From NCBI GenBank assembly GCA_036971615.1, contig JAYKKR010000011.1, positions 558,001-622,000 on the forward strand: DNA of 64,000 nucleotides, given 5' to 3'. Under the pieces are notes generated by a model. The model worked only from the letters and a program-made list of their open reading frames with translations. It was not told where the DNA came from and ran no database searches. Origin of the DNA: Amyloporia xantha. Taxonomy: Eukaryota; Basidiomycota; Agaricomycetes; Polyporales; Adustoporiaceae. This document shows, one piece after another, positions 15,703 to 51,822 of the stretch (positions within the stretch are counted from its first letter, which is position 1; the number at the start of each line of letters is the position of its first letter). A program made the position numbers and the translations under genes.

Positions 15703-15705
15703 CCC
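15703..15705. repeat. Target site duplication, left (CCC)
   Basis: The three bases before the CACTC terminus are CCC, matching the three bases after the right terminus (51820-51822). Three-base duplications are typical of CACTA-type transposition. The flank is C-rich, so chance agreement is not excluded. Confidence 0.6.
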
Positions 15706-16592
15706 CACTCCGTGCATGGCAGAATTTTTCCGGTGGAAAAATGGTGGAAAAATGGATGGAAAAATATAAGCTATTTCCAGTGGAAAAATGGTGGAAATAT
15801 TGCTGGAAATATGTAAATTTTTTCCAGCATTTTTCCAAGGGAAAAATGGTGGTTGGAAAAAGTAAACATATTTCCACTGGAAAAATGCAATATATTTCCA
15901 AGGATTTTTCCGCTGGAAAAATGATGGAAATATTTAAAATTTTTCCAGCACATTTCCAGTGGAAAAATGCTTGGAAAAAGTTTAACATTTTTCCACCTGA
16001 GTGACTCGATTTAAATATAGCATGTGACACTAGGACAAAAAAACCTACACGCTGTGACTAGTCACATATACTGTAGTCAAGTCAGGTCAAGTCAAGTCAG
16101 ATATTGCTGACATTAGCACAGTATCAAGTCAAGTCAATGCGAGTCAAGTCAAGTCAATGTCAGTCAAGTCGTGTCGTGTCGAGTCGGGTCAAGTCAATGC
16201 AAGTCGGGTCAAGTCGGGTCAAGTCAATTTCAGTCAAGTCAAGTCAATTCAAGTCAGGTCATGTCAAGTCAAGTCAATTTCAGTCAGGTCATGTCAAGTC
16301 AACGTGAGTCAAGTCAAGTCGAGTTGAGTCGTGTCAAGTCAACGTGAGTCAAGTCAAGTCGAGTTGAGTCGTGTCAAGTCAACGTCAGTCAAGTCAAGTC
16401 GAGTTGAGTCGTGTCAAGTCAATTTCAGTCAAGTCAAGTCAATTCAAGTCAGGTCATGTCAAGTCAAGTCAATTTCAGTCAGGTCATGTCAAGTCACGTC
16501 AGGTCATGTCAAGTCAAGTCAATTTCAGTCAGGTCATGTCAAGTCACGTCAAGTCAAGTTCGGTCAATGGATTTTCTAGTACAGACATACAC
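15706..16592 (+). repeat. Left terminal inverted repeat of the giant element
   Basis: It has three zones. Outer border 15706-15730 (CACTC...). A TTTCC/GGAAAAATGG-rich segment follows to about 16005. After a unique ~70 bp containing GTGACTAGTCAC comes an array of AAGTC units from about 16078 to 16565. The inner edge (TCAATGGATTTTCTAGTA) resembles the inner edge of the right repeat. The open frames seen through it are by-products of the repeats. Confidence 0.88.
16078..16565 (+). repeat. Subterminal AAGTC array (left)
   Basis: Dozens of 5-base units, GTCAA/AAGTC with variants GAGTC, TCGTG and GGTCA, are arranged in higher-order blocks of about 40 bp, such as GTCAACGTGAGTCAAGTC repeated at 16301, 16339 and 16379. 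In CACTA elements, subterminal repeats are binding sites for element-encoded proteins; that function is inferred here. Confidence 0.85.
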
Positions 16593-16740
16593 TCCGTTAT
16601 CACGTCCCACTAGCCCCACTAGTCCATAGTAGGTACATATACAAAGCAATTACTGTAATCTGCATCAATTTCACCAGAGTTACAGTGATTAGGCTTGCTC
16701 CAAGTCACTGGAACCATCCCGCCAACAGTTAGCATGAGCA

Positions 16741-19700
16741 CTACTCATACCTGATGTTCCAGGTGTCAAGTGAATGACTCACCCGATCCAAAGGGAGCGC
16801 ATGCATGCATTTTGAAGTGACTGAGGTTAATTGGAGTGGAGTTAGAGCAAAATGACAGAGAATAGTTGTTGATGATGTCAATGAGAGTAACACAGTGTCC
16901 TGTTCAAACTGGTCATAATAGACCCGGCCTCCAGCATAGGGGAATGAGTGGTAGTGATCATGCATTATATCAGCTGCACTCAGCTGTTTAAATTTCTGAA
17001 CCACAAAGAATGTGTTGGTAGTCACAGAAGCATTGGTTGCATCAAGTGTATGTGTGATTATTGCTCGAATGACCCCAGCTCTCCAATCTCTGGGGATATG
17101 GGTGCCAATTATAACATAACTGTCACGAGGAGATGAGTCAAAAGTAGTGAATTTGACTCCTTTGAGAGGGTATGCCTTGCGAAGAATACCATATGGCCTT
17201 ATAGATGGGGCCACAAGATCTCCATGTGAACTGTAGTGATTTTGCAGCAACCTGAGTGTCTGTGAATCAATTCTCTCGAGCTTCTCTTGCTGTGTGGGAG
17301 AGTCCAGTGAGTCTGTTGACTCCTCGGGTTCATCTCTATCACTTCCCACTGACTCAAACATGAGGATATCATTGAGCAAGGTACCACGAGTTCCCAGCCC
17401 AAATTTATCCTTGAATGCAGCGACGAGTTTATGCAAGGATTTGGGGAGAGCATATTCTTGTATAATGCTTCGCAACCGCTGAGCCATACAGAACCGCTCG
17501 TACATTGTTTTTTCCATTTGTCCTAGACAATCACCTTAATCAGTACTACATTTGGCATCCAATGAATAGAAACTGACATTACCTGATCTGTCATTGGTGC
17601 TAATTTGTTGAAGCATGTAGTTTGTGCGTTCAAAGACAAAGCTCCACACGGAGTGAGCAGGACCATACGAGCGCAGTTGATCCACAAGATGAGCAGATAG
17701 ATGCTGCGTTTGTCGAAGTGAGATGCCGGGAAACAGCACAAGAAGCTGATTGAGATATTGCATATAGTGCCGCTCGAATTGATGGATCCGCTCAGAAGAG
17801 ACATAACGCGATGAAGCAAGTTTCGTAGCAGTAACGAGGTCCATGAAGTTGAGCAACATCTCGTGAAATCGGCTACTTTTGTCGAGCGGGCCCCACAGAC
17901 GAACAAGACTTATAACGAGATGGACAGTGCAGAATGTGCGCCATTGATCTGCATATATCTTCCCGTGCCGTCCGTCACCAATGTGATAAGGTGCAGGCGC
18001 TATCCAGCTCGGAAGAACGGTGACCGCCATATCTTCCCAGATTGCATGGAGTCGTTCTTTGCCAAGAACTCGGGACTTTTTCACCTTTCCCCGAGCACGT
18101 CTTGCCGCTGCGAGACGTTGCGGGTTCTGAACGGTGAGTGCACCTGAGGGATCTGTGAGACCTATCTGCAATCTCTGAAGATTACAAATGAGGTCAATAT
18201 TCGCGGAAGATGGTTAAACACGATCACTCACCCACGTAGCAAGATGTTCGGCCAGTTGTTTCTTGTTGTTTCTCTCTAGACTTTCCTTCCGGTCCTCAGG
18301 AAATTTCGCCAGACACAGTGCCACGAGAAGGGGTTTGGATAGCTCTAGAAGTGTCTGTGTTGTAGGGGCACTTTCTAAAAAGTCAGTAGCGACGCGCAGC
18401 TGATCATCGGTTGGTTGATGGATCGGCACTGGGGACACTATGGGCAACTCTCCAGGTTCGGCTCTTTGCACAAGTTTCCCTTGAACGTCGAACCAACCTT
18501 TATCAATGCGCTAATGTGAATTGTCAGCCTAGTAACAAAAATTGAGGGAACGGACAACGTACATATTGCCGAAGACGCGCCAGAATCTGCTTCTTCTTGC
18601 CTGAATACCTAAGGGTTCCCCTATCCCTGGCCAGCATTCTTAGGACCGGAGCCGAGAATTTGCTCAAGGCAGTCATGCTGCCCTCCCTGAATGCAACCAT
18701 CGCGCGCTTCATCTCTTCGTCCGCTACAGGCGATTCCCCCTGTCTGATCGGGATCTCCAATTCTGAACCATCCCCATCTTCGAATTTGACATCCATACCC
18801 CAGATGGCACGACAATGGCGCTTCAGATTACCGAGAAAGATGGCGTGCATCGTGTCGAGGATAGTAAATGAAATAGGGTCCCAGTATGGTAAACGAAGTA
18901 GTTCCGACCAGCGCACGCCGTTTCTTTCGAATAAATCGTCGCGCTCATCTTCAGTTCTTGCATCGCGCCATTCTTTCGCAAATCTAAGGTGTTCCACAGA
19001 GTCACGTCTTCCCCAGGTACTGCGGTCCAAATTATCAATGTCATGCAGATGAAGGCGACAAAATGAACAGAAGAATTTGGCTGACGAAAACGACGCAAAC
19101 CCTGCCATTTGTCGAGCAGCAGGCAGATCACAGACAAGAGGAACGACGGCACAGCGGACCCGACGGCCAATGGGATGATCAGGGGTCTGGGAATACCAGA
19201 CACCAGGTTCCCAGAAATCGAGGAGATCATCAATCAGTGGTGTGAGGAGATGATTGATCTCGTTTAGAGAGGGCTCAGTTGGGCCTGGTATTATACCAAC
19301 GAGAAACATGTTCTCCACACGATATCTGTATTCGGGTGGCAAATTCAAGCAGACCATATAGATACCGGAGGTCGAAACTTGCTTTCCTGCAGCCTTTGAG
19401 CGACGGGGATTGAAGCCATCCATGGCGAGACTGAAGACATAACGACCTTCGGAGCCGCCGTTAGAGACAAATGCCCTGCCGTCCGCGCCTTTGAATGTGC
19501 GCAAAACACGGGCGTCCCAAACGTCATACATGTCGCCGTCATCTCCGCCGGGTTTGGTGAGGACGTCGCGATCAAGCAGTTTCTCCATTCCTTGCCGACA
19601 CATCATCTCGCCCATCCATTGCTTCATATCATGGTAATGATAACTGCGCGTCGGGAACGTGAATATCTTCCCTTTGATGGTTTGCTTCTTCCTCAACGCG

Positions 19701-21079
19701 CCGTCGCAGACTGAACTTCCAGGGGTCTCGCGATGCGTACAAAGCTCAGGGTACGAGGCGATCGAATATAATGAGAAGCAACGAGGACAGCAAACAAACG
19801 ATTTGGTTGACGGATGAAGGTCCAAAGTGTCGACGACATGGCGGACGTCCTTCGGTATCGTTTTCAGAATGTGATGTGCTGCTGGGGTCAAACCCCCAGA
19901 GAAGGAGAGTGATAAGTCGACTATGACCTGAAGGCTAGCCAAGGCGAAGGCGCAGTCGTTCATGGATAGATGACAAATGAGGAACAAGACCGCGATCAAG
20001 ACGTAACACGCTACACAAATTGCATCGAGATTACGCAAAGGGAGGCGCATGTACGGTTCTGCGATATGGCTATAAGACACTGTTGTATTAAGGAGGCATG
20101 TGGGCTTACCTGTATTGATTGAGTTACGATCTGGTTGCACCTCCGCTCGCGCTGATGAAGTGTCATCAGCAGAGTCGCGACAGACTTCCCATGCATGTCT
20201 TTTCAGTCCTTGTACGCGTTCCCACTCTCTCCCTATCTCGTCGACCAAGGACTGTTTCATCACAGACAGCACGTCGAGATCGAAAGTCGTGATGCGACCA
20301 GCCCGCGACGCGAAGTTGAGCAGTGTCCTTTCATATTCTAGAACTACCATATTCGTCGCAATGCCATGTCGCAATGCAAAAGGACCCGTGTTAATTTCTG
20401 CGGGCCCTGCTTCAGATGTACCTTCGCCTAATAGAGGAGGTGTAGGGGTTCCTGGATCAGGGGGAGCTACAAAGACGAGGTTATGTACGGGCAAGTTCAG
20501 CTGCCTCTGCTGATAAAAGACAGTTCGTATACGCTCCAGTTTGTCCGAGGTCTTGATCACCCTCGAAGCAGTCTTCTTCGGTCCAATTGAATTGGGTGTA
20601 GATGAGCTCAGCTGACTCTGGCCCTCTGCACCCGCGTCCGATGGAGGAGACGACTCTTTTGAAAAGGATAAGACGGAGGGCGAGATGCCATCTTCTCCGT
20701 TCCTTACACCGGAACCTTGCGAAGACGTCTCCGACGGTGAGATGCGATTAGCCTCAGATGTTGGGGAGCAATTAGAAGCGTCCCGCTCGCTGGCGGCAGC
20801 GATCTCGTGCGAAGATGCACTCAAATGTGCAGGCGGCCTTGTCGAGGGTGTCGGAGAAGAGTGGGACGCAGCCGATGGGACGCCCAAGTGCATAGCCCTC
20901 AGATCCTGCTTGCGGTGATCATGGTATTCCGTGGAAGACAAGTATCTGCCAGAGCATGAGCGGCCGGTTTGAGGATTAGTAGACTGATGTTGTCCGCATC
21001 CGTTTGAGACGCATCTACAAAGGTGTCCCGAGCTGCCGGTTGCCCTTCGGGGCGACCGTTCTTGAGCAGCCCCGCGCAT
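16741..21079 (-). CDS. Tnp2-type (CACTA-like, Plavaka-like) transposase
   Basis: Four exons (21079-18563, 18510-18232, 18174-17583, 17522-16741) join without a break to 1389 residues. The N-terminus has a Cys/His cluster (C-R-C, then C-G-x-H and later Cys/His), followed by a Ser/Pro-rich linker. The catalytic region shows family hallmarks: FSLAMDGFNP at about residue 550 (first catalytic Asp), LNLPPEYRYR, IIPGPTEPSLNEINHLL, a Cys-rich GFASFSSAKFFCSFCRLH, and FTILDTMHAIFLGNLKRHC near 735, which carries a further conserved Asp. The C-terminal part matches the tail of fungal Tnp2 proteins (GPAHSVWSFVFERTNYML, then YERFCMAQRL). The enzyme should cut at the terminal repeats and move the element. 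It reads toward the left terminal repeat, with its stop ~150 bp inside it. No lesion is visible, so the element may be autonomous. Confidence 0.92.
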
Positions 21080-21517
21080 CTACAAAGCGCATCAGTCAAT
21101 ATTTAGGATTGGATAAGTGTAGTACAAGCCTGCGGGTGTCTGTTCGCGCAAGTCCTTGCAATGAATCACAGAGACTTTGTTCGGGAGATCTGGAGAGCTA
21201 CAAGGACTACGAGTGGCACTTGCACGTGCACGTGCGACAGGCCTCCATGGCTGTCTCATGCATAGAGCGATAGCAATTCAGCAAACAGACAGGATTCACA
21301 GGAAACATATCAATTATAGGACCATGCCGACAAAACAGCGATAGAGTACATCGAGGAGACAGGCATAAGGACAGGAAGGGGGCATAACTACTGAACTACG
21401 ACGATACTATTCCACCTGACTAGTCTGTACGTGCATAGCTGCAGAAGTCATGAGCAACAGTGAGTAAAATGAGTTGTTCTTCATGCAGGGAATGGGTGTT
21501 ACATTACCTTCTTACAA

Positions 21518-22651
21518 TCAGATATCAGGACTGCCCGTAGCCTTTGAGCGGCCCACCTTCAGTCGCTGAGTCCCGATGTCGATAATCTCTAAGACTGTTT
21601 CGAAAGAGATATCGTCTGAAAGCAGTGCACCAGAAGCAATGCGACGAGTCTCCTCCGCGCCGCTCTGCATCCCTTCGAGCGTGTGGAGAACCATCTCGAC
21701 GTAGGCGAGAGACGCCTTGCGATACTGGTCCACACAACGTAAGACTTTGAGATCATTGTTGAAATTCGAGAGCTTGGACTGGTTTCCACCCAGATAAGTC
21801 CACAAGTGACCAAGGACTTCCTCCTTTGCCTGGCTGACTGCAAGACCTTCTGCAAGCGCAACATCGGCGATAGCGAGGAGACGGGCGTCGAGAGACTCGA
21901 GTTTGAAGAGAACCACCTGAGCGGACTGGATGAGGTTTCGAAGCACCGTCTCCACCGTCTCAAGTGTGTATTCATAAGCACGAGTGACATCCGCGGAATC
22001 TGGACCATGGGGAGTGCAGACATCTCCGGCTGATGGAAGAATGGTAGTGATGACATCGCAGAATGGGGAGGCTGACAAAGTGGTTGCCTGAGGAAACAGG
22101 ATGCGCGACATGAAACCGTGTGCAGCAATTATTCTGTATGGGACTGATGTTAATACGAGATAAGTAATTCGATATTTCGGTACGTACCTGTCACTACCGC
22201 TAGTAATCCTAGCGGTCATCTGTTGAAGATAGCGACTAGTGTCTTTCGCATCATCGGCGAAATCGACAATGAGGTCGTGCAACTCCTCCCGACGTTCGAG
22301 ACCACTTGACTTGACGAGGGGGAGAAGATCGCCCGCTGCAACCCGAGCATCCGTGAGATCGAGGGCCAAGCTATACGTTGTCGTCGACTGATCGAGGAGG
22401 CGTCCAAATCCCGAAGCTTCAGTACGTAGAAGAAAGGCCAGCGCTGCCCACGTCGCAGAATTGTCGGATTGGCAGAAGCCAACACTCGAGGTGAATGGCA
22501 GAAAACAGAATGCCGTGGTAGAAGCGTCTAAGACGTAGTCACCTATCTGCGCGATAGAAACGGGAATGATAAGGCCGATGATGACAACCAGGATGGGCAT
22601 TAGATCAATCAAGTTCTCCAGAAAGAAGTTAACGATGGGTAAGAAACGCAT
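21518..22651 (-). CDS. Helical membrane protein A, unknown function (paralogue of B)
   Basis: Two exons (22651-22188, 22133-21518) give 359 residues. I start at ATG 22651, where MRFLPIVNFFLENLIDLMPI enters a long N-terminal hydrophobic helix (about residues 15-40). The rest is predicted almost entirely helical with heptad-like spacing, for example DDAKDTSRYLQQMTARI and WTYLGGNQSKLSNFNNDLKV. The same order (one membrane anchor, LQ-x-x-ARL helix, WWTYLG/WTYLGG, YRKAxLAYVE, a terminal coiled coil) occurs in the protein at 47799-49149, so the element carries two diverged copies near opposite ends. The 54-nt intron is a multiple of three, so its retention would also keep the frame. I recognise no named family. 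The shape suggests a membrane-tethered coiled-coil structural protein. Confidence 0.72.
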   Translation of the reverse strand: MRFLPIVNFFLENLIDLMPILVVIIGLIIPVSIAQIGDYVLDASTTAFCFLPFTSSVGFCQSDNSATWAALAFLLRTEASGFGRLLDQSTTTYSLALDLTDARVAAGDLLPLVKSSGLERREELHDLIVDFADDAKDTSRYLQQMTARITSGSDRYVPKYRITYLVLTSVPYRIIAAHGFMSRILFPQATTLSASPFCDVITTILPSAGDVCTPHGPDSADVTRAYEYTLETVETVLRNLIQSAQVVLFKLESLDARLLAIADVALAEGLAVSQAKEEVLGHLWTYLGGNQSKLSNFNNDLKVLRCVDQYRKASLAYVEMVLHTLEGMQSGAEETRRIASGALLSDDISFETVLEIIDIGTQRLKVGRSKATGSPDI

Positions 22652-24166
22652 GTTGAGCAGTCGAAAGGGGTGAAGGTTATGCAAGTGACGATATGTGAGT
22701 GATTAGAGGCTAGTTTCGACGGGTACTGGGGTTTCGCTCTGCCCGAGCTCGTCTCCTCTTATATGATAGCAGGAGTGGCGACGAACAAAGGAGTGGAGCG
22801 TACAATGCAAACAGAGATCGCAAAGGCGATACACCTCATACCACGCGAGGCCGCGTGGACGGCACACAATGCCATCCGCTGTGTCCATCTCGCACTTGGA
22901 CGAGACATCACTTAGCCAGACTGGGGATCTGGAACGGGATTACCGTCAATAAATAAGAAATGCGCGCGAAGGGTGAGACACTGTGCGACACTGTACCCTA
23001 GAGAGCGATACGTATCCTCCAGATATGCCCGCGTCAAGTATTTCCATCGAGCCTAACCGAGATCCGAGAGGATCGGGTTTGAAAGCGCCGGTATTAACGG
23101 ACGACGGGGAATGAACATCTAGGACTAGTGTCGAGCAATACGAGTAGAGAAGGACGATATGATTGGCACCACGAGTAATGAAGGCGCGATATGTGCAGAC
23201 CAAGCGGAGGAAGCAAACATGACCCTCCAGGTCGCAGCACGAACGGAGTAAAGAAAACTTTTCGGACATACCTCATATACAAAGAACGAACGTTCGGCTC
23301 TCGGACGAATGGCGAATTAAGACTTAGAGTACTAGTCTTTCTCTACGCGCATCGACCCCTCGTCACCTTGATCCGGCTGTGTTTGGCCATTCAGATCGAA
23401 GTCAATTCAATCTACACGCAGCGGATGCAACTCACCTGTTGTAGGAAGCCCTCGTCACTGCTGGGATGCCAGTCGTTGCAGATGCCACTGAAGCATTCGG
23501 CTCAAACAGCGAATTTACGTTGGTGCTGTGTAGTCCGAGCGCGGGGAGACTTAGCTCTGCCTAGATCATGTCGCGGTACTTGTGGGACCTTTCTTTTCGA
23601 ATCCTATACACACAACCTTCGGAAACGCTTCACCTGGTAATAAGAATGAGTACGTCCCTTCAGGAATGGACGACTAGGAAAGTCGTAGCTTCTCCTCCGT
23701 GGCTTCTCCAGATTCTGTTTCTTCATGACGCACCTTGATCCTGTACATGGGATTGTAAGAAGTGCAGAATTGGGCTTACATGGATAAATCGAACAACGTG
23801 TTTCGTGACCACGGCACACCTTGGTCCTGGCGGTACCATGACAGAAGAATAATTGTGATGTAAATTGGACATTCCGAGTCCTGACAGGCAGTCCGTTGTC
23901 AGGAGAGCCGTGCAAACCTTGAAGCTTGAAGCTTGAGGTACAAATAAACACGTACCAGGCAGTACGTTCACCACCCTTTACAAGGTAACAAATGATTTTT
24001 TCTGGCATCTGTTTTCGGTCTATACATTCAATTTGTTACAGAATACATACCAGAGAACAGTGTATAATCTATTTCACAGCAAAACAAAAGCAAGATCGAC
24101 AGCAAGGTGAAAACAATACTAAAACCATGTAGTCACTACGAAATCCAGTACTATGTAGATGATGCA
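22652..24166. other. Cargo-region spacer, no supported gene
   Basis: Several frames of 60-150 codons exist on both strands (for example 22946-23269, 23191-23640, 23604-24008). None splices into a longer product or shows motifs. Part must be the promoter of the protein A gene. Confidence 0.4.
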
Positions 24167-24652
24167 TCAATGAGAAGAGTCCGGTGGAAAGCTAGGTAAT
24201 GAATACATGGCCCGTGCACTACAGCGAGCCAGTCTTGCACGGATACGCTCCTCTATAGCTCTCTCGGAAGCCCAGGTGGCTATCCATAGACCACGATATT
24301 CCCCATACAGGACCTCTGATGTTGATAATGCATCGCTCATACGTGATAGTCTTTCATCACGTAGTTGCACCTGGCGGACTAGATCAATCACAATTCGGCG
24401 AAGCTCTTGATCTGAGAGTGCTTCAGATTATGTGGTTGGCTACTGCTTATGTCGGCAAGGACATTTATGCTCACCTGCGAGATTGGGCTCAGAACCCAAG
24501 GAGTAGAGGCCCTTAGCCTTAGTCTCCTCGTAATCTCGAGATATCTCCTTGACTTCAGCATGCCAGGCCTTGCGCACTTGGGCTAATCGGTCAAAGGCCT
24601 CAATCTCGTAACGATACCTAAAGCCGATATCAGTCAACGGTAGCTGCGCCAT
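24167..24652 (-). CDS. Small coiled-coil protein, unknown
   Basis: Two exons (24652-24475, 24420-24167) with a clean 54-nt intron give 143 residues, starting MAQLPLTDIGFRYRYEIEAF. The protein is highly charged and helical, with AFDRLAQVRKAWHAEVKEI and LRRIVIDLVRQVQLRDERL as likely coiled-coil segments and a second helix rich in Glu and Arg. There is no membrane segment or catalytic motif. It lies between other minus-strand cargo genes of the giant element. The frame stays open and the phases match across the intron, which is my main evidence that it is a gene. Confidence 0.6.
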
Positions 24653-25093
24653 CGATTGCTAATCCTCACAATAACGGAGGGAGCGCATCGGGGCTATCCT
24701 GAGCGATGCTTTGCGTAGGCGAGTTGTCTTTCGAGAGCATGAAATATGGTGCGGATACTACGTGAAGTGGTGGTCAACCGACGCGACCATGAGGTATGGG
24801 GCCTGCTGTTAATTCAGCGGAGTCGGAGGTCTCCGTTTGATCTCAGCATGTCTCGTGGCCAGTGCAAGGCGATCGAAGATACATGGTGTGACAAGAGGAT
24901 AAGATATCTCGACAAAACTCTGCTACGAACAAGATGGGTACAGTACTTGGTGACGAAACACTCCCCGTAGTCTATATACTGCAGGAGTAGCATAAGCTAA
25001 TGATAAAGATGATGTCCAGTCCAGCCCATGTTCAGCTGGAGCAAATCGATTACTGCAGGATACCCGTACATACAAACAAAACTCCAGGGATAA
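24653..25093. other. Spacer between cargo genes
   Basis: No coding signal beyond a short plus-strand frame at 24746-24970 without features. It holds the promoter of the small coiled-coil gene. Confidence 0.4.
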
Positions 25094-26028
25094 TTACAAG
25101 ATCTCACGACCAGCAAGCTTAAGAGTCAGAAGGTATTCACACCGCTGAATAAACATGTTATTCCACGAAGCCAATCTGGACCGAAACGGAGATTGCACCT
25201 CACCATTCGCAACCGTCGTGGTCGTAGTTGTCGTGGTTGTCGTGGTCGTGGTTGTGGCCGTCCTTGTGATATTTCGCGCCGTGTGCTTCGTGGTCGAAGC
25301 ATTCTCCATCCCTGCAGACTCCAGCGGGATTTGCTCCCACGGCTTGGTAGAGAGCAGGTTCGACAGCTGAGTAATTTTCTCCCCAATGACAGCAAGGTCA
25401 GCCTTTATACTTCCTACGTCCTGATGGCACCAGAGGATGTCCACATAATGAGTGAAAAGTATTCAAAATGTATCATGTCAACAGACCTGTCCATCCTGCT
25501 TGCGGCTGTGAATATCACTGGTCGAGGCGTCGCAATGACCCGCACGCTGCGGCTCCTGCCTTGGAGATACAAGAGGTTCACGGACATCGGCCATACCTTG
25601 GTCGGACATACCCTCACTAGAGAACTCGAACTCTGTAGTCGGTGCATCCGCCGCTGATTTATTGTCGACTTCAACGAAAGATGACGCATTCCGGTTGATG
25701 TCGGGGGACGGCGGCGTGTTGAACAAAGGAGACCAAGGCGACGCAATGGTTATCGCAGCAGGAACACTCATTCCAGCAGAGTTCGCAGCGTTCCCTGCGC
25801 CAACGACCGGATTTGGAGGAATTGAATCGCTGCCGGCGACTGTGGTGTGTTTGTCCGGAGAGATCACTCGAAGAGATCCGGATGTGCTTTCAGGTAGTCA
25901 TGATCAGACGAGTGGATCACGAAGAAACATCAAGCGACGCACCGTTCCGTGTATCGCCCGCCACGAGCATTGCTCACAATGTCGCTCCAATCGAACCTAG
26001 ATCCCATAGCCTGAGTGTTATTCGACAT
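25094..26028 (-). CDS. Low-complexity cargo protein with Thr tract, unknown
   Basis: Three exons (26028-25943, 25886-25487, 25420-25094) give 270 residues from MSNNTQAMGSRFDWSDIVSN. The middle is disordered, rich in Ser, Pro, Asp and Ala. A short helical segment follows (DVGSIKADLAVIGEKITQL), then a run of about 14 threonines encoded by ACN codons at about 25209-25262, then a basic-hydrophobic end, IQRCEYLLTLKLAGREIL. The exon phases fit exactly. No domain is recognised. The Thr tract is encoded by a short-unit repeat and is likely to vary in length between strains. Confidence 0.6.
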
Positions 26029-37042: not shown

Positions 37043-37486
37043 AATACACGAGAGCTCTAGAGGACGTGATGGGTCAAGGTAAGGCGGGGCCACTTGTCCG
37101 AGATACCTTTGTCCTCTGCGATCGCTGCAAACGTTGCCACTGGACCTATGATCATGAGCTAAAAGTACATTCTTTGGCTAACCAGGCCTCACGAGTTATA
37201 ACAAAAGGTCGTACAAACGTACCAATGCCCGCCGTCAGCATACGTGAAGAAAACTAACTCTCGAAATACAAAAGCGCATGTAAGTACTTATGAGCAAGAG
37301 CTGCAGCGCCGTCCTGACGCGGCCACGTGCACTAATATGGATCGCTGTACGACGCGCGCGGCGATGTTCCTTTGTTCTTCCCGATGTCGGGTCGGCCAGG
37401 CCTGGGGAGCCACCCACTCCACCTCTCATCTCGTACGCAAAACCATCCCTATAGAGATATTTCTGCTCCATTTCGTCGTCTATATA

Positions 37487-39683: not shown

Positions 39684-39953
39684 ATCAAGGTTTCGAACAT
39701 CGCGTGGCACGGTAGCTATACGAGTGGAGGGCACACATGTAGCCTACAATGAGCTGTCGTATTTTCAACTATATCGAAATTCATGGAGACAACGCAGAGA
39801 TCTGATCACAACATCAAATAGCGTGTATTGCATAGAATGTAATCGGAACTTTGCCGAAGTATGTAGTACACAAGATCAGTTAGAAATATTTTGAAACGCG
39901 GAGACCTGATTATGGCGTGACTGCAAGCATGAAGACAGTGGCTTCGAAAAATC

Positions 39954-41153: not shown

Positions 41154-44100
41154 ATGAAGCGGAATCCCTCAGACACTGGCGAGGGGGCGCAAGACATTCA
41201 AAAGGGATCTCAACATGCTGCTCTCACGAAGTCGCAGTCCACGGAAGATGTCGCAGTCGATGTCACACAGAAGGACACTCTAGTCAAGTTAGTATGAGCC
41301 AGTAAGCTGAGGAGAACGGATACTAACTTGCTTGTAAATGGACACAGCGTTCGACATGGCGACCAAGAAGATAGCTCGGGGTCAGAGACGCCTTTAGCAT
41401 CTTCGTCCCGAAAGCGGAATCAGACCCCGGTCGCAAACAGGCGAGAAAGAACAGCGCCTTCGCTGGCTGACGGTGGGTCAACGTTTCTGAGCGACGGTCG
41501 TAGGCGCTCCATGAGGCATCTTCCCCGGGATTATGTTGAAGACTCTGAGAAGTATAAGCGCACATCCAATGGCAACAAGATCGCCAAAATGGGCCAGGCT
41601 TCTCTTACCACATCTCTTGCAGGCGCAAAACGTTTACACTCTCCTGAGCGATCGACTTCAGAAAAGCATATCCGTACTTCAAGAATTTCTCTTAAATCGT
41701 ATGCGACTCACATATTTCAACATTTCTGCATGACTGAAGTCTATGGTTACACAGTATCTCACGTCCGCTGGGTTCGCCTCCTGCGCCCTTTGCAGGCGCA
41801 AAACGTTCACACTCTCCTGAGCAATCGACTTCAGAAAAGCGTATCCGTACTTCAAGAATTTCTCTTAAACCGTATGCGACTCCCATATTTCAACATTTCT
41901 TCATGACTGAAGTTTATGGTTATACAGTATCTCACGTCCGCTGGGTTCGCCTTCTGCTCCCACATCAATTTCGAACGCTGTTGGCGCTACGGATAAAGCG
42001 ACATCCCCCAAGTCTCCACAGCCGTCCTCTGAAGCATCGACACCGCGGATGGAACTCTTCTATGACAGGGAAACAAGCTCGCAGTCGATGTCGGAGCGAA
42101 TGTTTCCCAGTGCAGAGCCTGCCGAAGACGTCGCGCTCACTGTCGGAGCCACTGATGAAACAATATCTTCCAAGTCTATACAGCCGCCCAGTGAAGCATC
42201 GACGTCGCGGACAGAACTCTTCGATGACAGGGAAACAAGCTCGCAGTCGATGTCGGAGCGAATGCTTCCCAGTGCAGAGCCTGCCGAAGACGTCGCGCTC
42301 ACTGTCGGAGCCACTGATGAAACAATATCTTCCAAGTCTATACAGCCGCCCAGTGAAGCATCGACGTCGCGGACAGAACTCTTCGATGACAGGGAAACAA
42401 GCTCGCAGTCGATGTCGGAGCGAATGCTTCCCAGTGCAGAGCCTGCCGAAGACGTCGCGCTCACTGTCGGAGCCACTGATGAAACGATATCTCCCAAGTC
42501 TATACAGCCGCCCAGTGAAGCATCAACGTCGCGGACAGAACTCTTCGATGACAGGGAAACAAGCTCGCAGTCGACGTCGGAGCGAACACCTGCGTGTGCA
42601 AAGACGGCCGATTGTTCGTTTCGTCGCTCCTCTGAGCAAGACATGGAGCTCGAAGACTTCACGCGCATTGTCGGAGCGACGGATGAAGCGACATCTTCCA
42701 AATCTATACAGTCGTCCTCTCAAGCACCGACGTCGCGGACGGAACTCATCGACGACAGAGAAACCAGCTTGCAGTCGATGTCGGAGAGGATACCTACGTT
42801 TACGGAGCCGGCCGATCATCGCCCCTCTGAGCCTGTTGTGAATACGGACGCTACGCTCAATACATCGTCGTATCCGAAGTCGAATCCTCCTTCTGGATCC
42901 AGTAGAGTGACACAGTCAGACGTTGTGCCGGAACCTGCACAATCACAACCCGCCCAGGGCCCGTCCGATACTGTGGACTCCACTTTCTCCGATCGTTCTT
43001 CTCCTGCACCATCGCCCCAGGAAGCACACCAAGACATTACCTCACCCTTGTCTTCATCACTCGCACCACTCTTACTAGCTCACCATGCCGGTGATCAAGA
43101 AGGCTCTCTAATTTCAAGAGCTCGACCAGCGTATACCGCTTCAAACGTCGAAAGCCCCCAGGAGTCTCCAAATTCGTTCGAACCACCGTCGCTATCGGCG
43201 GAAGTCAATACGCAAGGGTACTCTTCAACTCCCCCCGTTTTCCCTTCACGGCAAGTTTCTGATCACATCGCCGAACTGTTAACACCGCAAGTAGCTTCTG
43301 CAGAGGCTGTACATCCCTCTCTTCCACGGGACGAGCATGACAAGGAATGTCCAACTGACAGAAAGTCTGAAGGACTGCCGAGGTTTGTGTCCATCCAGTC
43401 ATCGTATGTACGATCATTTACACGTGTATCTGCACAGCCTAGGTGGTCATTCTCGCGTAGCTGTCCCCTCTAGTACCTCTTATTACCCGGTTGCTGAACC
43501 TAGCAGCGGGCCAATGATGGGACGTCTTCGCAGTACGCCTGTCGTTGGTCATAGGTCATCATCGTTTCGGGGATTCAAATTCCACTCGTTCGACGAAAAC
43601 GGCGCTGCTCTCAAAGTCTCAGATGTTCTGCGAGGCAGGTCTGAATTAGACGGCACACCTCAAGCTGTCCAGTCAGACATTCCCATGGACCAGGCGCGGC
43701 TGAATGCGGAGCAGATTCATTCTCCTGACAGAATACAGACACCAAGTCGGCGAGAATCATTTCAAAGTCAACAGCAAAGTTCGACTACAGTACTTCAAAT
43801 CGCGTCTCATGGGGGCGAGTTACAATATTTGCCCTTCAACAACAGTACTCTCGCGTCTCAACTACCCCTGCCTCATGCATACATTGGTGCGGACAAAATG
43901 GTCGAAGCAGGTCGAAGCCGAATAGCCTCAGACATTGAAGCTAGGCAGGGTCCGTTCCAGAGTATGCCGGCGCAAACCCAGAACATGCAGGGCTCGTCTG
44001 AGACCGAGGAACGAGCCTATCATGATGATGCTTTTAATGCAGACACTTTCTCGTATAATACCGAGCACCACGATAGCCTTAACTTTGCACCGATCAGGGC

Positions 44101-47100
44101 AGACAGTCCTCATAATCATCCACCTCCGCTTCGCCACATCATCCGTAATATCGGGCCCAATCACGTAGCAACCCTAGATGATTATCAAAGCGATGATTTG
44201 TCTCCGCGCCTGCTTCGACATGTTGACGACATAGGATTTAGGCAACCCGTCCTTGAGAGTGATGGAGAAATCATGTCCCAAGACGAAGATCGCATGTCCC
44301 GAGACGAAGATCGCATGTCCCACGACGAAGTTAACAGTGACTTGGGCAATGGCAATGGCAATCTACCTTTGGACGATCATGTCCAGTCAAATCACGAAGA
44401 TCAGTGTCAAACTTCGACGACGTTTGACGGGGACTCCTTGATCGATCATCAGAGTGATTCCATGTCGTATGACGGTAATCATTCCCCAATGCGCCAGCAA
44501 GTTGACGAAGAGATTTACTACCAGCGGGCTGACACAGGCACGGTCGTTCACCATGGCTACGCCGACTACTTCAAGGACTATGCCAGCGAGGAGGACCCTG
44601 CCAGCGAGGAGGACCCTGCCAGCGAGGAGGACCCTGCCAGCGAGGAGGACCCTGCCAGCGAGGAGGACCGTGCCAACGAGGAGGACCGTGCCAGCGAGGA
44701 GGACCGTGCCAACGAGGAGGACCGTGCCAGCGAGGAGGACCGTGCCAACGAGGAGGACCGTGCCAGCGAGGACGATTATGTTAACGAAGAGGATCTCGTA
44801 CGTGAGGATGACTATGCTAGCGAAAGCGACGATTTTCTCACGTATTACGAGGGCACGAGTCCATCATCCGAATCTGGTGAATTTGGTCGGGACCTATCGC
44901 AGGATGAGGGCCAGTCAGATTACATACAAGAAACTGATGGTAATCTCTTATATCATGAGGACAACGATCCGCCCTCGGAGGGTAATGAGACTGGCGAACT
45001 TCAGGCATGCAACAACTGGGGCGATCCTGATGCCTCTATTCCCAGAGATCAAGGCTACGACACCCAACCGTCCTATGGGTCTGTTCCCGATGAGGTGGAA
45101 GGGAATGATGCCTATCCAACAGCACCTCTACTGCCATATCTGGATCCTGATACTGCTTTCGACGTCGCTTATTCCGAGTTGTCGACACCCACGTTACAAA
45201 AGAATTTGCCATCTCACCCGAGGACCGCAGAAATCATGGGCTCACTTCACGCTTTCGGTCGTAGACCTGCAAACCCCTCTGGTATGCATTATAGCGATAC
45301 CGTAGTCCGCCATCAAGACGGTGTGGTTCGAAGCAACATTAGTCGACCTTCTCGCGGTGTTGATGGCATGACATTGACGTCAGCTTTGAGAACACCCGCA
45401 ACTGAGTGGTCCCAGATTTACGTAAAGAATGGTAGAATGAAAGCAGTCCCCTTAGCAGAAGAGGCGATGCCGCGAAACTGCTCCCCCAGAGTCGATAGGG
45501 TGCTGATACCTCCGTTGAGGGCAGTTCAGGCGCATGGACAGAGGCGGCGTATCGAACCAAGTGAACAAGGCCACATCCACAAAGGCAAGCACAGAATGGC
45601 CATAGATGATGATGAAGACGTCGAAATGCAGAGCGAGTCCGACACTCCATTGAAACGTCCACCCAAAAACACTTCGCAATCGCCTCTCCATGCCCAGGGC
45701 AACAGGTATGTTATCGTATCCATGTCGCGACGTATTATTGACTAAGTACTGCAACAGCCGCACGATTCAGTCCGATGGCAGCGATAGGTCTTCCAATGCC
45801 TTCGAGGATGCCGATTCGGACGGGGAAATGGACCAACTATCCGGTCAGCATGGTAGAGTCAGTCGGCTCCGCAGAATTCATTCGAAACGGACTAACATGT
45901 ATATACATATTTGTAGGATGTGACAGGGCCTCTACACGATAGTGCAAACCTAGGACAAGGTATGATCTCATTTGACCATCACCCGTTACCGTAAAGCTTT
46001 TGAGATGCTGAAGGTTACCGCGTCAAAGCAGGCTCCCCTTCAAATCACACTAGAATTCCATCTGTCCATAGCAGTGCTAGGAAGGACGCGAGGAAATCGA
46101 CCGGCGGTTTCAAACGTGCTGGACCGTCCATGCCTGCGAGTGACAATAGGGTCAGTCCAACGTTTCTCTCAACTCCACGGATGTTTATCAGGATTTACTT
46201 CCTAGAACGTGCCTGCCACAAAGGAAGACTTGTACACACTGCGGCACGATATGGCGCAGCTGCAAAATCGTGTCATGACCTCTCTAGAAGTACTCCTTGC
46301 TACACTTAATCAATCTCAGCCTCCTTCAAGAGGCTCGTCGCCAAGTACTGGAAGCGATGTCGCCGGGAGGGGCAGGTCTGATCCTTCCGAAAGTGCTGCG
46401 AAACTCGCTTCCCATAGTGCTGACGGTGGAAAACCACGCAAAACAATTCGAGGGCTTCGTTCTGGGTCACGGCACCCTACTCGTAAAACCCACGGCGAAA
46501 ATCTGTTACTGGTATGGGCTTGTCACAATATCACCGCATGCACGTCACTTATATATGCTCTGTCAGAGCAATGTGCGTGAACTTACGGCTGAGCTTTTGG
46601 GTCGGACGACGCGCCGTGCGCCATTTCCTGCACCTCCCAACGAACAGGAGTTAGCCGATTTCTCCGCCACCGGTCAAGGGGGCCCTACTATTGAAGATTT
46701 CCGTCTGGATTTTATTGGAAGTCGGCATTCGCGTTGGAATCGTCAAGCTGCACTGGTATTCGCCGAACGATTTCTAGAATCAAAATGGTATGAATGCCAG
46801 GAGGAAGACAAGATAGAGAATGCCTTCCTTAGTCATCTGAAGCAACTCAAGAATCAGTACCAGGAGCTGCAGCGAGTTGATGAACCTAATGAAGTCTCTG
46901 ATCCTAAAATGGAAAACCTGAGATATAATGCACGCCAGACACGACGGAAATCGGTACGTCAGTCTTCACGCACCTCTCATTCTGTGTGGGCTGATTTGTT
47001 TGTACCGTAGCTGTATGAACGTCGCCTCGATGCCTGTCATTTCCACGGCGAACTTCACCGCTTTATCCAGATCGTGGATCAGATGGGGCCGGATGGAATG

Positions 47101-47620
47101 AGCGGAGATGAGTCCGACCACGATGACGGACGGCGAGGAGGACAGCGGCAATACACCATCGTAGATGAAGAATGGAGAAACCCTGAGATGCGCCAATTCT
47201 TCCGAGTCATTGATCTACTGCATCTTGACACGAAGTTCAACGCCTTCGGGCGACCAGCGTCGGGCAATTGGCCTCGAGTTCGCTTACCCTCGTCGCGGCC
47301 TCCTATTCCCGGTACGCCGAGAAGTGGACTTCCAGAAAATTTCTACAACCCCGACTGGCTCGTGAAGCTCAACCGTAAGCAGCGGCAACAATTGAACGTC
47401 CAGCCGCCGCTTGCACTTTCGCATACCGAGTCCTCTTTACGGTGAGCTAATCGAATTTTGTCCGTCATTATCTCTGATCCACAATCACTCTAGACTGGCA
47501 GCGCGCTATGTTTATGTGACTGGAGCTGGGCCTGGTGGGCAAGCAACCCGGAATCAGGTCATCGACGCAAACGATCCACGAATCGAGCATATCATCGCTG
47601 GGTTGTCTACCACCCTTTAG
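41154..47620 (+). CDS. 1946-aa repeat-rich protein with conserved C-terminal domain
   Basis: Twelve exons join in phase: 41154-41287, 41348-41698, 41755-41871, 41928-43382, 43438-45705, 45758-45857, 45917-45959, 46029-46150, 46206-46511, 46567-46953, 47011-47441 and 47494-47620. The first ~1600 residues are disordered and include a duplicated exon, 54-residue repeats (about 242-470) and an acidic (ASEED[PR]) hexamer run (about 1067-1130). The C-terminal ~310 residues are folded: TLRHDMAQLQNRVMTSLEVL, SNVRELTAELLGR, FRLDFIGSRHSRWNRQAALV, a helical segment, YERRLDACHF and a Gly-rich end. This C-terminal arrangement (WN-x-x-A, then W-Y-E-C, then R-R-x-x-YERR) resembles a large family of uncharacterised agaricomycete proteins, as I remember it. 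Function is unknown; a DNA-binding or element-regulating role is a guess. Confidence 0.75.
41620..41965 (+). repeat. Tandem duplication of an exon-intron unit (173 bp x 2)
   Basis: The block from AGGCGCAAAACGTTTACACT (41621) through the exon end, the whole intron and the start of the next exon is repeated 173 bp downstream (41794). It includes the donor GTATGCGACTC and the acceptor TTACACAG or TATACAG. The duplication creates exon 3 of the 1946-aa gene as a copy of the end of exon 2. Confidence 0.85.
42052..42790 (+). repeat. 162-bp in-frame tandem repeat, four copies plus a degenerate one
   Basis: Copies start at about 42052, 42214, 42376 and 42538, each with GAACTCTTC[G/T]ATGACAGGG and ending in the GAAGCATCGACGTCGCGGA class of sequence. 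A more diverged copy starts near 42742. The repeats encode 54 residues each of the 1946-aa protein (RTELFDDRETSSQSMSER...). Near-identity of copies 2 and 3 implies recent expansion. Confidence 0.9.
44581..44772 (+). repeat. 18-bp tandem repeat encoding acidic hexapeptides
   Basis: About eleven copies of GCCAGCGAGGAGGACCCT and variants encode ASEEDP, then alternate ANEEDR and ASEEDR. They add a dense acidic block to the 1946-aa protein. Confidence 0.9.
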
Positions 47621-47798
47621 TCTGTCGTCTACCGTTTGAAACGTGCAATGGATCGGACGGCGCCTCGACTGATGGTTTCTAACGGTTGTATCTTGTAATA
47701 TCTCTACTGCATATCGTACCTTATGTATTCTTCATGCTGCATTTGAAACAAGTTCGTATTGATAAGCAACAGAGCTGCGTGTCATAAGAAAGCGTATA

Positions 47799-49149
47799 TT
47801 ACTGCCTGTCCTCCATCAAACGGACCGACGTTGGCCCGCTACCACTCTCTTTGGTTTCCATAGTTGTCAATCTCTCCTCAAGCCTCTCCACTCCTCTTCG
47901 GATGCTCTTCAATCGAACCTCGAGAGGTATGCGATGACCACCAATTTCCGGAATTAGGCCCTTCCGCTCTAACTCTTCCACCATATCGGTCATCTGGCGC
48001 ATCGTCTCCAGTGCGCCAACAACATGCGAGAGGGCTTGCTTCCGGTAAGTAGCTACGGTCTGTAGCAGAGCTTGATTGGCACGAAGTCGGTGCAAGATGT
48101 CTCGATTCCAGCCTAAGTAAGTCCACCAGTCATCGACCACCTCTAGCTGTTGACGAAAGATGTTAGCGTCTTCCAATACGACAAATTCATGTATTGTCAG
48201 GAGAAAGTCTTCCAGCCGTGCAAGTTTGCTTTCATGATTCTCAGCGTCGGTCACCAACGGAGTCATAGATGCGCGGATCAGCTCCAACATCCCAGACAGA
48301 GGGTCGCCTGAAACCTGTGCCACTGAACAATCAGATCCGTCCATTTGCAAAGGTGGTATTGGAGCGACGTCGGTAAAACCAGTATGCAGGGCGCAGTCGC
48401 TCATCACTAGGATGCTGATGAGTTGAGACGTCAATTGCATCCCACCGTGGCTAGAATGGAGGAGCTCACTTGTCAAACGTACTGCGAAGCCTCGCATTAA
48501 ACTTCTGCAACCCTCTTGCAGTATCACTCGCTTCCGTAGCCAATTTACGCAGTAATCTCTCCAGTATTTCTGCATGGGCCAGACTACTGACTCGCACTAA
48601 TGCGGCAATATCCCGGGACGCAATCTCTGCCTTCCTAATCTTCAAACTCGGTTCGGCACTGCCGAAAGCATCTCCGAGAAACTGATCGAATGAAGCAGAC
48701 CCTCGGTCCGTTTGAAAAGAGGCGGCACTAGGCCACATGGGTAGCGAGGTGCTGTGTACCTGGACCCCGTTCGCAAAGGTGTCGCCAGTACTGAGAATAG
48801 GACAAGATAGAAGCGATCCGACGAAGGGTAGAGAGCATATAGCTGCATGGGTAGGTTGAAGTAGAAGGGAAATTGACTGCGAAAGCATCCAGATCACCAC
48901 ACACACGGCGATTGGCGACTTCGCCCAGTGCAATGCCATCGCAACGACCTCATGGATGTAGACGATCAGAGACCACATGTAGGCTATAGCCCATTTGCGC
49001 CATTGGCTAGTCATAGGCAGGCCTGTAGACTCGCCCGATGGTATAGATGGTCCGTCCTGCGTAACTGTCGGTTGTATCACGCTGCAAGTGGTACATCTAT
49101 GAAATGAGCTCACCAAGGTCGACCTCACTGATGGGCTAGCGGTAGACAT
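47799..49149 (-). CDS. Helical membrane protein B, unknown (paralogue of A)
   Basis: Three exons (49149-49114, 49056-48470, 48399-47799) give 407 residues from MSTASPSVRSTL. Hydrophobic helices lie at about residues 35-75 (WAIAYMWSLIVYIHEVVAMA, SPIAVCVVIWMLSQSISLLL). A helical region follows with LATEASDTARGLQKFNARLR. Exon 3 has a joined helical part with VVDDWWTYLGWNRDILHRLR, TYRKQALSHVVGALETMRQM and a terminal coiled coil (LEVRLKSIRRGVERLEERL). The same layout and several matching segments occur in protein A (21518-22651), so they are diverged paralogues inside one element. No catalytic residues or named domain are seen. It diverges from the WD40 gene, 202 bp apart, so the two may share a control region. 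Confidence 0.7.
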
Positions 49150-49350
49150 CCAATGCCCCGGACGGTGAACAAATGTTGCTAGAGGTACGATTGAGGTAAT
49201 TAATGGCTGGAGGGTGGGTATGAAGAGCTGGAACGATGGTGTCTCAGCCACAATCGCAACGCGTTCCGCGACATGGTCAGGTGATGACCTCACTCGAATC
49301 GCCACTGTAGTGTCTTTCAAGTTGCTACATACGCCTAAACTCACGCTGCG

Positions 49351-50942
49351 ATGTCTTTGCGCTATCAGCGGAAGGAAACTTTGGGCTCTCAACATCTAGG
49401 ACCTGTGAATGCCGTTGCGTTCAGCCCTGATGGAATGCACCTCGCTAGCGCAGGTGAAGACGGGAGAGTCGTGATATGGTCCGTTCAGAGCAGACAGCCT
49501 TTGTCCGAGGCAGTCGCCGCGTCTCCCGTACTCTCGCTCGCTTGGCTCCAATCTTCCCAACGACTTCTATGTGGCTGTCACGATGGAACCTTCATCTCTA
49601 TTTTTCTGGAAGATGTACGTGTAACAGATTTGAGCATTAAAGTGATATTCACGTCGAACCACTGGCAGGACAAGATATCGTTCACCGGATTTTCCGCGCA
49701 CGGGAAACCAGTAGAGTGCTTATCGTTCTGCGAATCAATGGGTGTTCTTGCCTCTGGTGCTCATGATGAGTGCAAGCTCTGGGTCGCCCAATCGAAACGT
49801 AAGTCGACAGTTACTAGTCGGATCTATGGTACTTAACAAGCGTGCCCACTAGAACCTGTTCCTGGTCTGTGGGATGTTAGGCGAACTCTCCCTGACCCAC
49901 CACCTACAGCTTCCAGTGATCAGAAGTTGGTTGTGGTCACATCTATACAATTGTTCATGCACGGTAAAAGTCCAAGGCTTCTCGTCTCATACATGCATCA
50001 TGGTATAACGTGTGTTTGTCTGAATTGAGACACTATTACTATGGCTGATTTATTTGTATTAGATGTTGGGATTTGGATGGTGATTCACCTTTATGGGGTA
50101 TCGCACTTCCTCGTTGGTAAGATTAATAGGTCATCTCTGAGTACTTGGAGAGGGTTTGATTCACTTCATTGCAGTGGTGCAGCCTTTATCTCACCTGACC
50201 AATCCCGAGTTGTTGCATCAAACCTTTCTGATGAGTTCCTCATTTATGAGGTTGTTTCTGGAACCTGTATCCACAAGCTTCAGATCCTGGACAACGGATG
50301 GAGATCTGTCTTGCCTGTCCAGTTCATTCATGATGGTCTTGGTCTCCTCACAGGGAGTTCAGTTGGCCAGGTGCAGATCTGGGACCTAGTACATTATGAA
50401 AAGTTGCAGACTTTGTTGCATAATGGTATGTATAGTCAACTGGATGAATGGATGGCAGTAAACTCAATTTTATGTTGAAGATGAACCTGTCCAAGCAATT
50501 TCAGTGAGTGGCTCCCCTAACTTTCAACAAACTGAGCAGGGAATTTTGACCAATTCAGGCTTATTATGATGGGTCTCATGATATATTTCTAATTGCAACT
50601 GCAACTAGTAATGAAGGTCACTCGGATGTATACATGTGGCAGACAGAAGCAGGTATGAGGCTGAATTGTGTCTCATAATTGTGATTACAATGACCAATAC
50701 CAACAACTTATGATTTATCACAGTGGCCAAGCTAGAAAATCTTTGTGAGTTTGGGGTATCTTTATGCTGTAGTATACACCTAACATCATATTTCTTCATA
50801 CCCAGCTTCAAGTGATGGAAAGCCTGAAGGCCAAGTTGACCAGCTGCTTGTGGTTCCTGCCAAGAGAAACTGGAGGCAAAAACTTGTGTATTCTGGCATT
50901 GCAGTTCTCATTGGATATATGTTACATCATTTCAACGCATAG
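49351..50942 (+). CDS. WD40-repeat protein with C-terminal membrane anchor
   Basis: Eight exons (49351-49798, 49853-50009, 50063-50116, 50175-50425, 50481-50503, 50559-50652, 50724-50744, 50806-50942) give 394 residues. It begins with WD40 repeats: [69 protein letters not shown] and [10 protein letters not shown]. Later blades read [20 protein letters not shown] and [19 protein letters not shown]. The last exon ends in a single hydrophobic helix ([19 protein letters not shown]), so the propeller would be tail-anchored, facing the cytoplasm or nucleoplasm. It is the rightmost cargo gene and ends ~43 bp before the right terminal repeat. Codon use and T-rich introns differ somewhat from neighbouring cargo, suggesting a separate origin. 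Confidence 0.78.
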
Positions 50943-50984
50943 GGAATGTGTTTTTGTATTCTAGTCATTGAAGTTAGAATGACA

Positions 50985-51819
50985 TGTATGTTCATACTAG
51001 AATTCTATTGACTGAACTTGACTTGACTGAAATTGACTTTATTTGACTCAATCTGACTTGACTTGACATGACCTGACTGAACTTGACTTGACGTGACTTG
51101 ACATGACCTGACTGAACTTGACTTGACGTGACTTGACATGACCTGACTGAACTTGACTTGACGTGACTTGACTTGACTTGAATTGACTTGAATTGACTGA
51201 AATTGACTTGACTTGACTTGACCTGACTTGAATTGACTTGACTTGACTGAAATTGACTTGACTCGACTCGACCCAACTCACATTGACTTGACACGACTCG
51301 ACCTGACTTGCATTGACTTGACCCGACTTGACCCGACTTGCATTGACTTGACCCGACTCGACACGACACGACTTGACTGACATTGACTTGACTTGACTCG
51401 CATTGACTTGACTTGATACTGTGCTAATGTCAGCAATATCTGACTTGACTACAGTATATGTGACTAGTCACAGCGTGTAGGTTTTTTTGTCCTAGTGTCA
51501 CATGCTATATTTAAATCGAGTCACTCAGGTGGAAAAATGTTAAACTTTTTCCAAGCATTTTTCCACTGGAAATGTGCTGGAAAAATTTTAAATATTTCCA
51601 TCATTTTTCCAGCGGAAAAATCCTTGGAAATATATTGCATTTTTCCAGTGGAAATATGTTTACTTTTTCCAACCACCATTTTTCCCTTGGAAAAATGCTG
51701 GAAAAAATTTACATATTTCCAGCAATATTTCCACCATTTTTCCACTGGAAATAGCTTATATTTTTCCATCCATTTTTCCACCATTTTTCCACCGGAAAAA
51801 TTCTGCCATGCACGGAGTG
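50985..51819 (-). repeat. Right terminal inverted repeat of the giant element
   Basis: Inverted counterpart of 15706-16592: AAGTC-type array (about 51005-51420, read as TTGAC on this strand), the ~70-bp unique piece with GTGACTAGTCAC, the TTTCC-rich segment (51525-51800) and the border ending GGAGTG at 51819. A 108-codon frame through the outer part is identical in both copies, so about 325 bp show no difference. Confidence 0.88.
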
Positions 51820-51822
51820 CCC
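51820..51822. repeat. Target site duplication, right (CCC)
   Basis: Matches 15703-15705 on the other side of the element. Confidence 0.6.

Follow-up and report, generated by a model that had tools for sequence, protein, structure and literature searches.

A giant EnSpm/CACTA transposon in Amyloporia xantha, and evidence for a lineage carrying a conserved kit that includes nuclear-envelope proteins

Introduction

Whether a classical cut-and-paste transposon can enclose a dozen or so genes as a single element, and whether such genes are accidental baggage or a retained part of it, is the question raised by a locus of the polypore Amyloporia xantha (Basidiomycota; GenBank assembly GCA_036971615.1, contig JAYKKR010000011.1), where a Tnp2 transposase and a large set of further genes lie between long inverted repeats. 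The window analysed here, a stretch of 64,000 nucleotides, corresponds to C3:558001–622000 of a 46.8-Mb assembly in 60 contigs (C-numbers are contig labels; coordinates without a label are those of the window). Classic CACTA elements span a few kilobases and carry one or two genes. The proposal of an initial annotation, that the window holds a ~36-kb CACTA-like giant transposon with structured cargo, is supported both by the window sequence and by the rest of the genome. The favoured reading, held with high confidence, is of a giant EnSpm/CACTA transposon in a lineage carrying a conserved kit that includes nuclear-envelope proteins; its structural part is close to certain. The reading is built on element ends, target site duplications (TSDs), a kit common to two bounded elements, clustering of kit families with Tnp2 elsewhere and conserved reading frames, from which mobility is inferred.

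Fungal EnSpm/CACTA elements are characterised by a Tnp2/Transposase_21 transposase, CAC…GTG termini, a 3-bp TSD, and CxxC and H motifs (PMC12730594, PMC1636069). The window element and a second, larger and distantly related element on C12 resemble them in Tnp2, CAC…GTG tips and a 3-bp TSD; the window Tnp2 also has a conserved CxxC and a conserved H.

Results

Boundaries of the window element

A single EnSpm/CACTA element occupies positions 15706–51819 (36,114 bp) of the window, so that the span of 15703–51822 given initially is right with the duplication included. Its terminal features and transposase gene are as follows.

15703–15705, no strand: left TSD copy CCC, weak alone (C-rich flanks)
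15706–16085, plus: left terminal inverted repeat (TIR), perfect part, 380 nt at 100%, tip CACTCCGTGCATGG, internal GGAAAAAT-type repeats; related tips in five short elements
16086–16576, plus: left subterminal array, AGTCA-type 5/10-bp repeats
16705–21092, minus: Tnp2 (EnSpm/CACTA) transposase gene, rough model of ~1,300 aa in 8 exons with doubtful intron placement; PF02992 in frame 18524–21079
50992–51439, minus: right subterminal TGACT array
51440–51819, minus: right TIR, perfect part
51820–51822, no strand: right TSD copy CCC

The tip sequence CACTCCGTGCATGG is found at both ends, the element reading CACTCC…GGAGTG, in agreement with the CACTC starts noted at first and with the CAC…GTG form of the superfamily. 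The terminal arms (15706–16085 and 51440–51819) form an inverted repeat of 380 bp that is 100% complementary; beyond it, 15 bases are present on the left only, followed by 128 further matching bases (ending at 16228 on the left, beginning at 51312 on the right) that already lie within the AGTCA/TGACT arrays, which diverge thereafter. The inverted repeats of 0.84–0.89 kb first proposed therefore hold only with the arrays counted, the perfect repeat in the base-by-base end alignment being 380 bp. CACTA elements typically have subterminal repeats, and here they are present at both ends as AGTCA/TGACT arrays, with 43 AGTCA counted in 16050–16600 and 39 TGACT in 50950–51440. CCC stands at both outer borders, as the initial annotation had it; this duplication is weak by itself because the surrounding sequence is C-rich on both sides (CCTCCC and CCCCGC).

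Short relatives bear on this point. When 420 bp of the left end served as query against the genome, 14 matches resulted. The arms of the window element itself account for four (two forward and two self-inverted); the remaining ten pair into five short elements that each have both ends, namely C58 and C11 (246 bp apiece), C27 (2,357 bp), C34 (1,917 bp) and C1 (2,191 bp). Matching 3-bp flanks occur in four of the five (ACG, ATG, AGG, TAG; C1 is without), or five of six with the window included, and the window's duplication is supported because these relatives share its tips. With both ends and their own 3-bp duplications, the short copies look as would be expected of non-autonomous derivatives of an active family. 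The initial annotation had looked to ends occurring singly, as independent short elements, for evidence against a single transposon; short elements with these ends exist, but all five have both ends and four have their own duplications.

The same copies, three of which also hold AGTCA/TGACT repeats, lend some colour to the notion that a host region is flanked by chance by two short elements or by an inverted repeat pair. This is very improbable, since the window arms are identical over 380 bp whereas the short copies align to them over just 108–143 bp at 76–89%, the 3-bp flanks match, the transposase adjoins one end, and the whole arrangement is repeated at C12.

The transposase

The intact Tnp2-type transposase of the initial annotation is borne out by frame 18524–21079, open for 850 aa, with a match to PF02992 (Transposase_21) at E = 4.4e-14 (52.6 bits, cut-off 28.6). 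This frame was aligned with those of 12 other genome loci (13 rows, partly redundant in that C60, C23 and C13 are close copies, as are C29 and C7); the C3_521k row was disregarded because its frame misses the catalytic domain. The catalytic pattern of the superfamily is D and D, with CxxC and H(3–4)H ahead of the final E. In the 850-aa numbering, D554, D651, C671 and C674 are invariant in 12 of 12 usable rows, the CxxC motif being C671xxC674, and H745 is present in 11 of the 12, with a gap in the remaining row.

Kit genes in the window element

About 12–13 genes are enclosed according to rough models, which makes the initial figure of about 13 a fair count. Those with relatives in the C12 element are listed first.

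21518–22651, minus: TM-A, 377 aa, N-terminal hydrophobic segment; a family without a name, with homologues elsewhere in the genome
29389–31900 (end approximate), plus: P29, a protein of no named family, from gene prediction and genome matches
32186–34640 (end approximate), plus: LEM/MAN1-type inner nuclear membrane protein with HeH/LEM, transmembrane segment, MSC and C-terminal winged helix
34965–36079, plus: SUN-domain protein (Sad1_UNC) whose N-terminal region is hydrophobic; PF07738 and structure match
41154–47620, plus: large repeat-rich protein, one or two genes, with a conserved C-terminal part (BigC) at ~46206–47441
47732–49395, minus: TM-B, a TM-A paralogue (25% over 344 aa, E = 3e-18)
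49339–50942, plus: WD40 protein, with a C-terminal hydrophobic stretch seen by eye and below the hydropathy-scan threshold

The gene model used fuses P29, MAN1 and SUN, and the three were split by eye. The domain order of MAN1 (HeH/LEM, transmembrane segment, MSC, winged helix) is complete, with PF12949 at 1.6e-8, PF09402 at 8e-66 and, at 33.07 kb, a peak of hydrophobicity; at its C-terminus the protein matches the solved MAN1 structure 2ch0 (E = 1.3e-4). The SUN protein matches PF07738 (E = 4.4e-28) and the chain of human SUN2 (E = 1.7e-21), with human SUN1 also matched and hydropathy peaks upstream of the domain. Predicted folds of SUN (mean pLDDT 47) and TM-A (39) from single- or two-sequence input were uninformative, and TM-A gave no match against solved structures. 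The product of 41154–47620 is probably disordered; an 18-bp in-frame repeat array lies at 44520–44860 with an acidic EEDPAS/EEDRAN stretch, and 162-bp repeats at 41.96–42.8 kb.

A second giant element with the same kit

Ahead of the Tnp2 homologue at C12:211.6k lie arrays and, at C12:205485, a CACTGG tip. A genome pattern search with this tip, allowing at most three mismatches, gave 23 matches, comprising ten inverted pairs and three unpaired tips (C5, C29, C54). One pair bounds C12:205485–287411, an element of 81,927 bp with CTG on both sides, identical tips CACTGG…CCAGTG and a TIR of ~0.8 kb or more, with two substitutions, one 22-bp and one small indel over the aligned ~0.8 kb. Matching 3-bp flanks were found in ten of ten pairs, of which ~8 are independent because C22, C33 and C60b share flanks and are counted as one event. 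Eight of the other nine pairs span 0.9–2.8 kb. The ninth, C10:656152–693177 (37,026 bp, CAA/CAA), was considered as a third cargo element and set aside, no kit search giving a match there; in samples of 1.7 kb at its left end and 2 kb mid-element, the middle piece holds a retroelement-like open reading frame (RNase H motif by eye), and the pair is probably a short element enlarged by nested insertion.

Seven families are common to the window and C12 elements: Tnp2, TM, P29, LEM/MAN1 (MSC), SUN, the BigC disordered protein and WD40. On C12 they lie at 211.6k (Tnp2), 214.8k (P29), 221–222.4k (MSC), 228–229k (TM), 272k (SUN), 278.7–279.5k (disordered C-terminus, joined query) and 282.9–284.0k (WD40). 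Identity between the two elements is ~41% for Tnp2, 48% for the MSC domain, 71% for the MAN1 winged helix, 42% for SUN, 33% for the disordered protein and 29–31% for TM; P29 matches at 39% over 59 residues, and two pieces of WD40 match at 44% and 27%. In both elements Tnp2 lies close to the left tip on the minus strand, and a plus-strand succession of SUN, disordered protein and WD40 leads towards the right tip; the order of TM and MSC is swapped between them. Because the C12 element, more than twice as large, has the same core set, the cargo is read as a conserved kit and not as accidental baggage. The recurrence of some of the cargo as a kit, in the TSD-flanked 81.9-kb C12 element and beside further Tnp2 loci, goes beyond the initial annotation.

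The C12 element also holds an FKBP domain gene (C12:218–219.8k), its N-terminus nucleoplasmin-like by eye, with a weak relative at C3:515.7k in the C3:515–530k locus; at C12:266.3k a weak sub-cut-off match to U3_assoc_6 (Utp6) possibly marks a further nucleolar cargo gene.

Kit families beside Tnp2 elsewhere in the genome

Matches to four kit families were collapsed by hand into 33 loci outside the window (TM 6, disordered C-terminus 12, SUN 8, MSC 7), partly non-independent in that C60, C23 and C13 are near-identical copies and the C12 loci are one element, and were compared with 14 strong Tnp2 loci (at least 175 bits). Of the 33, 26 (TM 5, disordered C-terminus 11, SUN 7, MSC 3) lie no more than 80 kb from a strong Tnp2, against an expected 4.8%, and 19 no more than 40 kb, against 2.4%. 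The SUN locus C60:624k may be the host Sad1, though it is counted among the 26. At a further SUN locus, C58:1807k, BLAST gives no match with the window SUN; this locus was rejected as a kit member and is a probable host gene.

A WD40 search gave 51 matches. Outside the window, the seven best are spread over five places (C34, C12, C3, C59, C45) and all lie within the C12 element or at most 45 kb from a strong Tnp2, with ordinary WD40 genes ranking below. For the searched part of P29, the genome offers two further matches, one at C12:214.8k and the other at C3:512.8k, 9 kb away from the C3:521.6k Tnp2. In these searches none of these families turned up near C29 or C7, which are among the 14 Tnp2 loci. 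The C60, C23 and C13 Tnp2 regions are 99.4–99.95% identical over ~4.3 kb, C60 and C23 sharing an extra 2.6 kb at 99.8%, and are probably recent copies of another giant element.

As side observations, these three regions lie at C60:540.5k, C23:1595.6k and C13:437.6k, the TM and disordered-protein homologues on C60 and C23 being nearly equidistant; and at C33:132–180k and C21:30–64k, oppositely oriented Tnp2 loci have SUN nearby, C33 in the inverted order SUN, Tnp2, Tnp2, SUN.

Constraint, age and origin of the cargo

Between the window and C12 copies, the winged helix has a pN/pS of 0.34, the MSC domain 0.43, SUN and Tnp2 0.48 each, and the disordered C-terminus 0.59 (five segments, four genes); between the paralogues TM-A and TM-B the ratio is 0.65. 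These values are soft evidence that the kit reading frames are under constraint. Over most of MAN1, the window and C12 copies are each nearer to a copy at C12:2911k, with no strong Tnp2 near, than to each other (for the window, 50–52% vs 42%), whereas over the last 108 residues window–C12 identity is 67%, vs 52% to the C12:2911k copy. This pattern is consistent with a host origin of MAN1, whose lower dS of 0.8–1.3 allows its capture or exchange at a later time than for the transposase. The identical TIRs suggest that the window insertion is young, although gene conversion could look alike.

The resemblance to C12:2911k is also the kind of observation that favours passive capture, in which a CACTA element would have taken up adjacent host genes by chance, with no role in the element: MAN1, SUN and WD40 are families that fungi possess anyway, gene order is variable from locus to locus, and the protein at 37.5–39.7 kb is without a relative elsewhere. 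Passive capture is nevertheless improbable, as the same seven families recur in two bounded elements with differing tips and far-diverged proteins (~27–48% in most high-scoring pairs), kit families stand beside further Tnp2 loci, and the frames stay conserved.

Remaining cargo, domain content and setting

The other genes of the window element, by prediction, are the following.

23332–26607, minus: weakly predicted multi-exon gene, no significant domain
27121–29125, minus: weakly predicted multi-exon gene, no domain in the frame scan
36146–37471, minus: predicted protein with a C-terminal hydrophobic segment by hydropathy (tail anchor?)
37487–39683, plus: predicted protein in which hydropathy marks a segment close to the C-terminus as hydrophobic

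A joined-query genome search gave no match outside the window for the last of these, and because it has no relatives elsewhere in the genome, not all cargo is core. A six-frame Pfam scan of 22.7–51.0 kb returned HeH/LEM, MSC, Sad1_UNC and WD40-type families and a weak low-complexity Dicty_REP match (E 0.017); 'host-like genes', as the cargo was first described, is thus backed by domains for MAN1, SUN and WD40, and the other cargo genes have no domain support.

An integrated large DNA virus or a Polinton/Maverick-like element would share the size, the long TIRs and the many proteins of no named family. The six-frame scans of 22.7–51.0 kb found no retroelement or viral domains, including polymerase, capsid, ATPase and integrase families, and Tnp2 and 3-bp flanks are present instead, so that a viral or Polinton-like origin is hardly credible. 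The Starship captain domain is named DUF3435; no tyrosine-recombinase captain was matched in six frames of 22.7–51.0 kb or in the Tnp2 and TM-A frames, which alone were scanned in 15.7–22.7 kb. Scans of Rfam (gathering threshold) and for tRNA found nothing. The left-hand neighbours of the element are a TLDc gene and a gene for a Ctr copper transporter; on the right stands a ferric reductase whose rough model begins ~70 bp beyond the element.

Discussion

Several points weigh against a giant element with a conserved kit. The approximate gene models were made with a small home-made predictor whose training set was this sequence; cargo elements with both ends located number two (the window and C12), and nested insertions may lie within C12:225–265 kb and 280–286.6 kb. 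In the assembly the 36-kb element is without another close copy, and its left flank occurs there once, so that no empty allele can be read in this one strain. MSC clustering is moderate (three of seven loci), gene order varies at loci without located ends, and the measure of constraint is soft because three of the five segments (SUN, Tnp2 and the disordered C-terminus) have saturated synonymous sites. The cargo SUN and MAN1 could, moreover, act on the host or do nothing.

Comparison with described systems sets the element apart in several respects. Fungal EnSpm/CACTA elements have been described with a TET/JBP gene (PMC12730594, PMC1636069); the elements here, of 36 and 82 kb, have an envelope kit instead, with some dozen genes in the window element. 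Enlarged En/Spm elements of the red alga Chondrus crispus are likewise oversized, at 16–20 kb with 4–5 open reading frames, but they are about half the size or less, and no envelope genes are named in the passage on them (PMC6431247). Starships are giant fungal cargo elements with a tyrosine-recombinase captain (PMC12134995), eight of them reported in Tremella (PMC13066641), in contrast to the DDE-type Tnp2, long TIRs and 3-bp TSD found here. Teratorn (PMC10175614), a very large, many-gene DNA element, carries a virus-derived gene set; Mavericks, also very large and with many genes, do so too. No such gene set was found in the six-frame scans of the window element (22.7–51.0 kb). Neither a giant element with such a kit (an absence that is weak as evidence) nor a paper joining SUN domain, LEM domain, transposable elements and fungi was found in the open-licence literature.

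For the favoured giant EnSpm/CACTA element, its anatomy and what is known of the superfamily suggest that Tnp2 would excise it at the CACT…AGTG tips and reinsert it with a 3-bp duplication. The AGTCA subterminal array is probably where the transposase, or an accessory protein, would bind, and the best candidate for such an accessory protein would be the conserved disordered one. In yeasts and animals, SUN and LEM/MAN1 proteins hold chromatin at the inner nuclear membrane; the element's own pair may tether it, excised or integrated, to the nuclear envelope, by which it could be kept, its segregation biased, or its passage between nuclei of the multinucleate mycelium favoured. This envelope-tether function of the kit is put forward tentatively. 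We regard it as a possibility, with the odds somewhat against it, that these elements form an undescribed class of giant fungal DDE-transposase elements whose co-evolving core is an envelope kit (SUN, LEM/MAN1 and tail-anchored partners), a self-built inner-membrane tether for persistence, biased segregation or crossing between the nuclei of a heterokaryon.

Giant fungal cargo elements are known chiefly as Starships; the present elements indicate that 36–82 kb is within reach of a classical cut-and-paste DDE lineage, with a gene kit retained through deep divergence. To our knowledge, no known transposon addresses the nuclear envelope with its own SUN and LEM proteins. The finding makes testable the manner in which large excised DNA survives and a possible exploitation of nuclear architecture by mobile elements in multinucleate organisms; an element-built inner-membrane tether, if true, would be a new mobile-element strategy.

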